From positions 310,001-374,000 of the forward strand of contig NZ_PYAS01000002.1 of the NCBI RefSeq assembly GCF_003014695.1: a DNA stretch of 64,000 nucleotides, in the 5' to 3' direction. Under the pieces are notes generated by a model. That model searched no databases. It saw nothing but the letters and a program-made list of their open reading frames with translations, and was not told the DNA's origin. The stretch comes from Dyadobacter jiangsuensis (lineage in GTDB: Bacteria; Bacteroidota; Bacteroidia; Cytophagales; Spirosomataceae). Position numbers and translations under genes: made by a program. Positions within the stretch are counted from its first letter, which is position 1, and each line of letters opens with the position of its first letter. Below are positions 3,254 through 52,389 of this stretch, in pieces.

Positions 3254-3264
3254 CGCCAGTTTTT

Positions 3265-3415
3265 GTCAGGAATGGTCAGTTATAGTCATGTATGGTCAAG
3301 AGTCGTCAATAAGTCAAGTGTTGAAAGGAGAGAAAATTTAATGACAATGCCTGACTATCAATGACAATACTTGACAATGTCTGACAACATTTGACAACAC
3401 CTGACCACCAATGAC
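3265..3415 (+). repeat. Helically phased GTCA/TGAC array upstream of gltX
   Basis: Six GTCA tetramers begin at 3265, 3275, 3285, 3295, 3305 and 3313. Eight TGAC tetramers (the reverse complement) then begin at 3342, 3352, 3362, 3372, 3382, 3392, 3402 and 3412. Within each block the spacing is exactly 10 bp, except the last GTCA at 8 bp. The six bases between tetramers vary. The two blocks form an inverted arrangement about a 25-bp centre. The array fills nearly the whole space between ridA and gltX and ends 36 bp before the gltX ATG. A related array lies at 39502-39575. Confidence 0.9.
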
Positions 3416-3450
3416 CAAAAACCATAGAACAGTAATTAATTTTTGAATAA

Positions 3451-5001
3451 ATGAATAACAAACCTGTCAGGGTGCGTTTTGCGCCTAGTCCAACCGGTCC
3501 GCTGCACGCGGGCGGTGTGCGCACGGCCCTGTATAACTACCTGTTTGCACGCCAGCAAGGCGGCCAGATGCTGCTTCGCATCGAAGATACCGACCAGAAC
3601 CGCTACGTTCCGGGCGCCGAGGCATATATTCTGGAAGCGTTGGAATGGCTGGGGATCGGCATCGACGAAGGCCCGCAGCAAGGCGGCCCGCATGCCCCTT
3701 ACCGGCAATCGGAGAGAAAAGAAATGTACCGCGAGTATGCGGAAAGGCTCGTTCAGGAAGGGAAGGCGTATTATGCTTTTGATACCCCTGAGCAGCTGGA
3801 TGATATGCGCAAGCGCCTGGAAGCTGCGAAAGTGGCTGCGGTCCAATACAATGCAATCACTCGTACCGAAATGACCAACTCACTGACGCTGTCGGCGGAG
3901 GAAACCAAAGCACGGCTCGAAAGCGGCGATCCTTACGTGATCCGGATGAAGATCATGCCCAAAGAGGATATCCGTTTCAATGACCTGATCCGCGGCTGGG
4001 TGGTGGTACACTCGTCGCAGATCGATGATAAAGTGCTTTTGAAGTCGGACGGTATGCCTACTTACCATTTGGCAAACATCGTGGACGACCATCTGATGGG
4101 CATCACCCACGTGATCCGTGGGGAAGAATGGCTGCCTTCGGCTCCGTTGCACGTGCTGCTGTACCGCTATCTGGGCTGGGAAAGCACCATGCCGCAGTTT
4201 GCGCATTTGCCTTTGCTCCTCAAACCGGACGGTAACGGCAAGCTCTCGAAACGTGACGCAGATCTCGGTGGGTTCCCGATCTTCCCATTGGAATGGACAG
4301 ATCCTAACACCGGCGAAAAAGCCCGCGGTTTCCGTGAAGAAGGCTATTTGCCCGGCGCTACTGCCAACTTCCTCGCATTACTGGGCTGGAATGCCGGTAC
4401 CGAGCAGGAGATTTTCAGCATGGACGAGCTCATTGCCTCATTCAGCTTCGAGCGCGTGCATAAGGCGGGTGCGCGATTCGATATTCAGAAGGCCAACTGG
4501 TTTAACCAGCAATATTTAAAACAGCTGGACGATGCTGCGATCATCGAAGAACTGAAACCGTTGTACGCAGCGAAAGGCATTACTGTCAACCAGGACCAGC
4601 TTGCACAGATCGTGCATTTGCTGAAAGACCGCGTACATTTCATCAAGGAAATCGTTTCGGAATCGCTCTTTTTGTTCGCAGCGCCGGAGGAATATGACCA
4701 GGATGTGGTGATCAAGAAATGGAATGAGGAGGCCGTGAATGCTATCGGCGGTTTCAAAGAGGCTTTGGCCGGTTTTGACGGCAACTTCGTAGCACACGAT
4801 ATTAAGGAAGTACTTTCGGCGACGATGGAATCGCTGGGTGTCAAAATGGGTAAGATCATGCAGGCACTGCGCCTGGCGGTAACCGGCGCAGGTGCCGGCC
4901 CGGATTTGATGATCATCATGGAGATACTCGGAAAAGACGAGGTCGTGAGAAGGCTTGAAACAGCGCTCAGCCGCTTGTCAGCACAAATAAGGCTGGCGTA
5001 A
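3451..5001 (+). CDS. gltX: Glutamyl-tRNA synthetase
   Basis: A 516-residue class I aminoacyl-tRNA synthetase that charges tRNA-Glu with glutamate in the cytosol. The HIGH signature appears as LHAGG (residues 18-22) in the family opening RFAPSPTGPLHAGG, and the KMSKS loop as KLSKR (264-268). The N-terminal Rossmann catalytic domain is followed by the alpha-helical anticodon-binding domain to residue 516, a normal length for Bacteroidota. The ATG at 3451 follows an AT-rich leader. The upstream phased repeat array is the only notable regulatory candidate. Confidence 0.97.
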   Translation: MNNKPVRVRFAPSPTGPLHAGGVRTALYNYLFARQQGGQMLLRIEDTDQNRYVPGAEAYILEALEWLGIGIDEGPQQGGPHAPYRQSERKEMYREYAERLVQEGKAYYAFDTPEQLDDMRKRLEAAKVAAVQYNAITRTEMTNSLTLSAEETKARLESGDPYVIRMKIMPKEDIRFNDLIRGWVVVHSSQIDDKVLLKSDGMPTYHLANIVDDHLMGITHVIRGEEWLPSAPLHVLLYRYLGWESTMPQFAHLPLLLKPDGNGKLSKRDADLGGFPIFPLEWTDPNTGEKARGFREEGYLPGATANFLALLGWNAGTEQEIFSMDELIASFSFERVHKAGARFDIQKANWFNQQYLKQLDDAAIIEELKPLYAAKGITVNQDQLAQIVHLLKDRVHFIKEIVSESLFLFAAPEEYDQDVVIKKWNEEAVNAIGGFKEALAGFDGNFVAHDIKEVLSATMESLGVKMGKIMQALRLAVTGAGAGPDLMIIMEILGKDEVVRRLETALSRLSAQIRLA

Positions 5002-39501: not shown

Positions 39502-39575
39502 GTCAATTCGTGGCATCCTGACTACTCTTGACTACTTCCTGACTATTCTTGACAATTTCTGACAACCGCATGACG
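39502..39575 (-). repeat. Second phased GTCA array, upstream of 5-oxoprolinase
   Basis: On the plus strand TGAC tetramers begin at 39519, 39529, 39540, 39550, 39560 and 39571, a spacing of 10-11 bp, with one opposed GTCA at 39502. Read in the direction of the oxoprolinase gene, this is six GTCA followed by one TGAC, the same order as upstream of gltX. The two arrays also share GTCAAGAGT(A/C)GTCA. The array occupies the gap between the AraC stop codon and the oxoprolinase start, ending about 40-60 bp before that start. Confidence 0.88.
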
Positions 39576-52052: not shown

Positions 52053-52120
52053 GATATAATGTGTGTTGTTGTTAGAAATGTGGCGTTCGGTAAAATTTGC
52101 GTGCGCCGTATTTTAATCTG

Positions 52121-52389
52121 CAAATCCTGCGGTTTCCACAAATCCTTCGGGTTCTACAAATCCTTCGGTTTCTACAAATCTTTCGGTTTCTACAAATCTT
52201 TCGGTGCTCTGCACCTCGGCACTTGTATTGGTCTGCACCGTTTTTTCAAACCTTTCGGTTTCTACAAATCTTGCGGTGCGCTGCACCTTGGCCAATCATC
52301 TATCCCCTCGCAATGGTGCAGAGCACCCAAATAATTGTAGGAAATCCAGACGTCACCCCATTTTTCCCAAGGTGCAGCGCACCGTAAGA
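52121..52389. repeat. Composite repeat: 18-bp tandem units and GGTGC-N3-GCACC palindromes
   Basis: Five 18-bp units of the form CAAATCTTTCGGTTTCTA run from 52121 to 52210 and two more from 52247 to 52282. Palindromes GGTGC-TCT-GCACC (52203-52215), GGTGC-GCT-GCACC (52275-52287), GGTGC-AGA-GCACC (52315-52327) and GGTGC-AGC-GCACC (52371-52383) follow; the last two are the reverse complements of the first two, with related flanks, so the region is an inverted pair of composite elements. Because 18 is a multiple of 3 the array reads open on both strands, but I do not call a gene there. Confidence 0.88.

Follow-up and report, generated by a model that had tools for sequence, protein, structure and literature searches.

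The inverted array of GTCA units that precedes gltX in Dyadobacter jiangsuensis is probably a gene-less pair of arms of an element whose complete form carries a protein gene between two such arms. It would be selfish or near-neutral and putatively recognised by a pentamer of that protein, here called IVP (PF05635, also S23p), the 23S rRNA intervening-sequence protein, a four-helix bundle. The full element consists of a degenerate tandem arm, usually G-rich, an IVP gene of the PF05635/TIGR02436 type and the reverse-complement arm. The array was found in a stretch of 64,000 nucleotides (the window). It is unremarkable as a feature of gltX and of high interest as a lead to IVP elements.

Layout of the Array Upstream of gltX

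The array lies between a gene of the RidA type (PF01042; 2876–3253, plus strand) and the glutamyl-tRNA synthetase gene gltX (PF00749, PF19269; 3451–5001, plus strand), beginning 12 bp past the stop codon of the former. Its 5′ arm (3265–3316, plus strand) contains GTCA at 3265, 3275, 3285, 3295 and 3305 in 10-bp steps, followed by a sixth, off-phase GTCA at 3313, 8 bp past the fifth. The 3′ arm (3342–3415, minus strand) holds eight TGAC, from 3342 to 3412 in exact 10-bp steps, corresponding to GTCA units of the minus strand. A hidden Markov model (HMM) of the unit assigned eight units to each arm (3255–3323, score 51.5; 3338–3415, score 54.8). The arms are separated by a loop of 25 bp (3317–3341), and a leader of 35 bp (3416–3450, plus strand) connects the last TGAC, which ends at 3415, to the gltX start at 3451.

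The existence of the array was confirmed: the pattern GTCAN6GTCAN6GTCA has 10 matches in the window, nine of them in this array, compared with a mean of 0.02 and a largest value of 1 in 100 dinucleotide shuffles. The original prediction of six GTCA and eight TGAC in two opposed blocks with a near-exact 10-bp period also holds, with five GTCA and all TGAC in exact phase. No open reading frame (ORF) of at least 80 aa that could be an IVP is found in the loop, and inspection of the loop sequence revealed no IVP remnant. Since the loop measures only 25 bp and contains no IVP gene, the gltX array is an orphan. A second array of the same family, at 39516–39574 on the minus strand, is a single arm of six TGAC units and adjoins the stop codon of a minus-strand gene (291 aa) that is presumably of the AraC type.

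Repeat Unit and Distribution of the Family

In 213 units from the same genome, some of them counted twice as the selected loci overlap a joined region, the unit reads GTCA-D-K-W-R-T-D. Of these units, 97% have T at position 9, 92% have A or G at position 8 and 75% have G at position 6, and C is almost missing from their spacers. The six bases between the tetramers, initially described as variable, are so only in part, the spacer being loose but constrained. A step of 10 bp is usual without being strict, as other arrays have 11-bp units. When units of seven loci were paired between D. jiangsuensis (G000) and another genome (G175), a pairing that required similar spacers beforehand, mismatches amounted to 6/124 in the tetramer versus 29/186 in the spacer (p 0.003). 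Longer blocks, e.g., 20- and 30-mers, are repeated inside arrays. The earlier assertion that this is not plain slippage was borne out, as were the conserved tetramer at a fixed step and the two opposed arms. Membership among slippage-type simple repeats, with near-identical units and even drift, was considered and rejected in view of the fixed core and the loose spacer.

The 8.27-Mb genome contains 470 matches (215 + 255) to four units in a row and the reversed control none, while the unit HMM found 16 segments scoring at least 28 in 604 kb of it, compared with zero when the sequence was reversed. Matches occur in 35 of 48 Dyadobacter genomes (range 0 to 610). The advice to scan genomes with the GTCA(N6)GTCA pattern proved sound, as did the naming of Dyadobacter as a host. 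A family-level sample of 200 genomes gave 50 with matches, mostly Dyadobacter and a few in four other genera, and in a phylum-level sample of 394 genomes three had matches, namely G000 and G232 with the GTCA family and G593 with another word. The five-unit pattern hit at least 114 stretches in a public collection of genome contigs, and Dyadobacter was the array-rich genus among the matches listed. Among the 80 loci listed, those from outside Dyadobacter mostly consist of exact tandem repeats or of other words, but L142/L161, L145, L168/L189, L185 and L200 have units like those of the GTCA family. Viral contigs gave at least 120 stretches, and none of the six inspected belonged to the GTCA family.

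Position, Polarity and Turnover

Sixteen array clusters (score of at least 24) were located in the 604 kb, 11 between called genes and five, mostly weaker, inside called genes, a placement that rests on a crude gene caller. The neighbours of the 11 intergenic loci are co-directional in six cases, convergent in three and divergent in two, and eight of these arrays start no more than 13 bp from a stop codon. By extrapolation from eleven per 604 kb, a genome would hold about 150 gene-less intergenic array loci. According to the original prediction, the array probably overlaps the promoter or leader of gltX. Genome-wide, however, the arrays are not tied to promoters, given the 6/3/2 orientations, and on the same grounds classification as a gltX promoter operator array was rejected. 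The array is not specific to gltX, and nothing in this analysis shows that it is tied to gltX control.

Random placement relative to genes combined with absence from the gltX region of relatives had been named as the outcome that would speak against the original prediction, and the result was mixed: the arrays are not promoter-tied, yet one precedes gltX in 23 of 30 Dyadobacter species (both arms in 21, one arm in two, none in seven). In one genome with no array before gltX (G204), a similar leader lies directly 5′ of the gene. No clean target-site duplication was seen on comparing filled and empty sites, among which there was no clean pair; G204 may be a deletion. Arrays are gained and lost between close species, and their unit number and spacers change fast. 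At two loci of G175, the same spacer contains another tandem array, namely an octamer near TTGAATGA and the heptamer GCCGAAA. The gltX spacers of G175 (L053) and G206 (L055) carry a GC-rich insert with CGCGCGGCGGACCGC inside the array, at different places.

Adjacent opposite arms no more than 400 bp apart face inward, GTCA first and TGAC second, in 36 of 36 pairs, which comprise 14 selected loci of the D. jiangsuensis genome, 11 gltX orthologues and 11 pairs in joined regions and are partly the same loci. A pair of reverse polarity, with the TGAC arm 5′ of the GTCA arm, is found at G169:C1:711126–711199, extra outward arms are present at two IVP loci (L488 and L492), and the order of the arms at one gltX locus out of 21 (G032) is not a simple one. 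Both in its unit and in its polarity, the gltX array belongs to the family. Tandem-repeat scans revealed additional families with units of 7, 8 and 9 nt, several of them forming inward pairs. Inward-facing degenerate intergenic arrays of these three lengths are present in the joined regions (G175 C9 and G000 C2), and some of them match the arms of IVP genes in the same genomes. As for the complementarity of the arms noted at the outset, it follows from the shared motif, but co-evolution of the arms within a locus was not seen, since own arms fit no better than swapped ones (permutation p 0.23).

Complete Elements with an IVP Gene

In a distant member of the Bacteroidota (G232), an ORF is enclosed by two GTCA arms (L356), and GTCA arms likewise enclose an ORF at L145, L185 and, in the D. 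jiangsuensis genome, L038. The latter element (G000:C2:25116–25472) is flanked by lpd and prfB and precedes the window by about 285 kb. Both PF05635 and TIGR02436 match the proteins of L038 (99.3 bits with a cut-off of 33.8, and 98.4 bits, respectively), L185 and L145, and the L356 protein shares 61% identity with that of L038 over 116 residues. PF05635 occurs in 41 of 48 Dyadobacter genomes with 113 rows, of which 92 rows were fetched as 91 loci and 21, many of them fragments, were left out.

The arms were evaluated at 88 IVP loci, taken from 94 by leaving out L356, L145 and L185 (outside the genus) and L519, L477 and L464 (fragments). At 56 of the 88 loci, the upstream flank shares at least four 9-mers with the reverse complement of the downstream flank; direct-orientation sharing was found at 8 of 88, and control genes gave 6 of 222. 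Thirty-two of the 88 loci fall under the 8-mer arm threshold, and seven or so of these are in the GTCA group. Shared 6-mers were rejected as an arm statistic, being noisy and no better than controls, and replaced by 8- and 9-mers. Among 62 loci with clear tandem segments, 45 have a G-rich upstream and a C-rich downstream arm, and four have the reverse.

The GTCA-type IVP of Dyadobacter occupies a single orthologous site, between lpd and prfB, so that its 17 Dyadobacter rows represent one insertion and are not independent. The neighbour genes of the out-of-genus GTCA-type members differ from those in Dyadobacter. A second site, beside an ABC transporter gene, is occupied in different species by two IVP clades (10 and 8 loci) with different arms. 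The motif GTTAC-N14-22-[CG]GT[ACT]T is present in 12 of 88 IVP leaders versus 8 of 949 control genes and resembles an ECF-type promoter; a similar stretch also lies upstream of a RAYT gene.

Correspondence between Arm Unit and IVP Clade

The arm unit (7, 8, about 9 or 10 nt long) tracks the protein clade. GTCA decamers accompany MKLEELQVYQ-type IVPs in Dyadobacter and in other Bacteroidota, a GTTCG-type decamer accompanies two proteins nested in the GTCA clade (L486 and L494), and TTGAATGA-type octamers accompany one IVP clade. Other clades have GAGTTTA-, TCGGCTG-, AGGCTTT-, TTGGCTG-, GTGAGAT- or TTAATTG-type heptamers or a GGAGGAAAG-type unit (by eye). In a tree of 116 proteins, GTCA units flank 20 loci on both sides, and every one of these belongs to one of two neighbouring groups (11 and 17 rows); the remaining 88 rows include none with GTCA units on both sides and three with them on one side. 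This tree is built on few columns and leaves many forks open; it omits L519, L477 and L464, the duplicates L521 and L526, the frame-broken L533 and L542, and the short-flanked L544. Of eight out-of-genus members, which belong to other families and were chosen by protein alone, four have both arms, two have one and two have none, as scored with an HMM trained on Dyadobacter. More distant IVP members have arms of 7 or 8 nt. The GTCA- and GTTCG-type arms, from one clade at one site, provide a close natural pair for testing the code.

Array Numbers and IVP Presence

Nineteen of 48 Dyadobacter genomes have a GTCA-type IVP, whole or in part (fragments only in G181, G130 and G201; a stop inside the match in G209 and G202). 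The median number of array matches is 60 in these 19 versus 2 in the 29 others (Mann-Whitney 9e-6), where G172 and G154, of the GTTCG-type subclade, are counted as lacking the GTCA-type IVP. Arrays are above zero in 19/19 versus 16/29 genomes (Fisher 5e-4), the medians are 56 versus 2 with the own arms of the element removed (p 1e-5), and the 14 genomes with an open, fetched GTCA-type gene have a median of 101 versus 2. Octamer arrays show the corresponding excess, with medians of 84 versus 7 with and without the octamer IVP (p 1e-4); for five of the 20 octamer-IVP genomes the assignment came from the score class with the locus unfetched, and the 15 fetched give 99 versus 7. The octamer arrays do not follow the GTCA-type IVP (p 0.59), and GTCA arrays weakly follow the octamer IVP (p 0.018).

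On a gltX tree of 30 species (30 of the 48 genomes), IVP presence is scattered, with 11 changes and 396 of 500 shuffles as low; hence, shared descent is not the simple cause of the association. Independent pairs on firm branches are too few, six in all; a cut of 10 matches gave about 3.7 pairs in the expected direction and 0.2 in the other (median p 0.25), and at cuts of 25 and 50 matches fewer of the six pairs differ (median p 0.25 or more). The GTCA-type IVP is missing from two array-rich genomes, G211 (342 matches) and G203 (97), exceptions that recent loss of the gene may explain. The lpd-prfB spacer was read in four genomes without the IVP (G211, G204, G203 and G151); in G211 and G203 an unrelated palindrome is found instead of the IVP. 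The palindrome CCCTGAGCGAAGTCGAAGGG is present in this spacer, the IVP site of other species, at L551, L552 and L553 (G211, G204 and G203, respectively). The gltX array itself is present without a GTCA-type IVP in, e.g., G211, G213 and G187.

Structural Model and Proposed Mechanism

The structure model of the IVP has a mean pLDDT of 91.7 and matches the S23-family entries 2gsc and 2rld, each with five chains per entry, followed less surely by Avd. In the sequence search of solved structures, 2gsc (E 0.0012) and 2rld (E 0.0024) were likewise matched; the lowest E-values belonged to designed TPR proteins, none of which passed on any single stretch. The IVP family is probably ring-forming.

What the computations show is the existence and polarity of the arrays, the constraint on their unit, the agreement between arm unit and IVP clade, and the surplus of arrays in genomes with the cognate IVP. 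Beyond this, we infer that an IVP pentamer may bind the repeats, most likely in single-stranded form, RNA or exposed DNA being our guess at the strand that would be bound. One unit would be held per subunit, with GTCA as the contact and the spacer as the stretch between subunits. Acting in trans, such recognition would help arms to grow, spread or be maintained, and the arrays would behave as selfish or near-neutral repeats, like REP sequences with RAYT. A five-fold ring with one unit per subunit would explain why an arm has several units, why a fixed core is combined with a loose spacer and why the step is clade-specific. The gltX array would then probably be a passenger of its intergenic spacer.

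More broadly, we tentatively propose, with slightly less than even confidence, that IVPs and inward degenerate arrays may form an undescribed class of protein–repeat partnership in Bacteroidota and perhaps wider, with a word and length (7, 8, about 9 or 10 nt) specific to each clade, one unit per subunit of a pentamer ring, and numerous gene-less arm pairs spread or maintained by the IVP in trans. Four-helix-bundle proteins of PF05635 are common, and the IVP of the D. jiangsuensis genome has 2582 relatives at E 1e-10; to our knowledge, no settled role has been assigned to the family outside rRNA intervening sequences. Should every clade be flanked by a word specific to it, scattered through the genome where the protein is present, PF05635 would acquire a concrete role, and a type of intergenic repeat noted long ago would acquire a cause. 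IVPs would then make or maintain part of the intergenic simple-repeat DNA in this group, and this large uncharacterised family would have a role open to testing.

Alternative Explanations

The arm-clade code and the surplus of arrays where the IVP is present would be equally expected if the IVP were an RNA- or DNA-binding regulator, with the repeats at its own gene serving self-control and the scattered arrays, including that at gltX, forming its regulon. The retention of arrays before gltX in 23/30 species also agrees with this, and a post-transcriptional regulator has been proposed for TAACTGA arrays (PMC4679880). Such a regulon is nevertheless unlikely, as the arrays occur in all gene orientations, often beside stop codons, turn over between close species and, at gltX, persist in genomes that lack the GTCA-type IVP. 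We consider it improbable, and more so than a regulon, that the arrays are plain slippage tandem repeats that involve no protein, the link to the IVP being a by-product. The repeated 20- and 30-mer blocks do show slippage or unequal exchange, and repeats of 5–11 nt occur in many bacteria according to PMC4679880. Against this stand the retention of the tetramer while spacers change, the inward polarity, the presence of the same unit in distant Bacteroidota, and the tracking of IVP clade by arm unit and of cognate IVP by array number.

Protein-binding sites on one face of the helix that regulate gltX, as envisaged in the original prediction, would fit the exact 10-bp steps at gltX and the closeness to this gene in 23/30 species, but must be regarded as very improbable: helical phasing is an unlikely principle given sister elements with the same build and steps of 7 and 8 nt, units of 11 bp are tolerated, the arrays are not promoter-tied, and the gltX leader is similar in G204, where the array is absent. 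Moreover, helical phasing would account neither for several units per arm, nor for a fixed core with a loose spacer, nor for a clade-specific step. The lowest probability of all is given to an RNA hairpin between the ridA-type gene and gltX that acts as a terminator, processing site or mRNA stabiliser. The minus strand does fold better than 200/200 shuffles (z −3.7), and stems of rRNA intervening sequences (IVS) are cut by RNase III (PMC4990558). However, the plus strand, which corresponds to the ridA-gltX transcript, is not special (z −1.5, with 16/200 shuffles as good), own arms matched no better than swapped arms, several loci have a single arm, and the T run before the arms and the A run after them are the opposite of a terminator. 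An Rfam scan returned nothing above gathering, its four weak miRNA matches all being far below this threshold. As the arms would pair in either order, a hairpin alone leaves the polarity unexplained, whereas descent from one arm-gene-arm ancestor would explain it.

Relation to Known Systems

Cyanobacterial STRR and long simple sequence repeats are other examples of intergenic short tandem repeats. TAACTGA arrays also have short units, are mostly intergenic and are patchily distributed over phyla including Bacteroidetes and Cyanobacteria (PMC4679880). In contrast to TAACTGA and STRR repeats, the GTCA family combines degenerate units having a fixed core with opposed inward arms and a cognate protein gene. 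The 23S rRNA IVS shares the protein family, has inverted arms around its gene and is called selfish (PMC4990558); in the same paper, tandem GACAGAT heptamers, unequal in number between strains, are reported to precede the start codon of S23p. That sequence lies within 23S rRNA and has a 28-bp stem, while IVP elements lie between protein genes and have long degenerate arms as well as scattered gene-less arms. Neither the IVP element between lpd and prfB nor the gltX array between the ridA-type gene and gltX is inside 23S rRNA, and only the full element has the PF05635/TIGR02436 protein. The IVS with tandem heptamers before S23p (PMC4990558) and the intergenic TAACTGA arrays (PMC4679880) are already known. 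No paper joining IVP genes to flanking tandem repeats was found among openly licensed PubMed Central papers, which is weak evidence of absence.

Avd of diversity-generating retroelements has the same fold as the IVP (4dwl and 8ub7, TM about 0.76–0.81 on the query), with weak matches (E 0.012 to 0.11, 7–9% identity). Animal foldback transposons have inverted arms of short tandem units around a variable loop, a likeness of architecture; no clean target-site duplication was found at the GTCA arrays compared. TRAP is an RNA-binding ring that reads spaced triplets, and its likeness would lie in the ring-reads-spaced-units mode proposed by analogy for the IVP, the fold being unrelated.

In REP/RAYT systems, the repeat brackets a protein gene on which numerous gene-less copies, scattered elsewhere, depend. 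IVP elements share the framed gene and the scattered gene-less copies, but have no Y1 transposase and no hairpin per unit. RAYT as a partner of the GTCA arrays was rejected: PF01797 is found in 47/48 genomes, but 20 RAYT flanks contain no array scoring at least 24, the best score in these flanks being 20.2 with two units (the RAYT flanks of the D. jiangsuensis genome were read by eye). The window itself contains a RAYT-type gene (PF01797; 51699–52040, minus strand), beside which an 18-bp tandem repeat of about 4.9 copies (52117–52205) is present, with GC-rich palindromes around.
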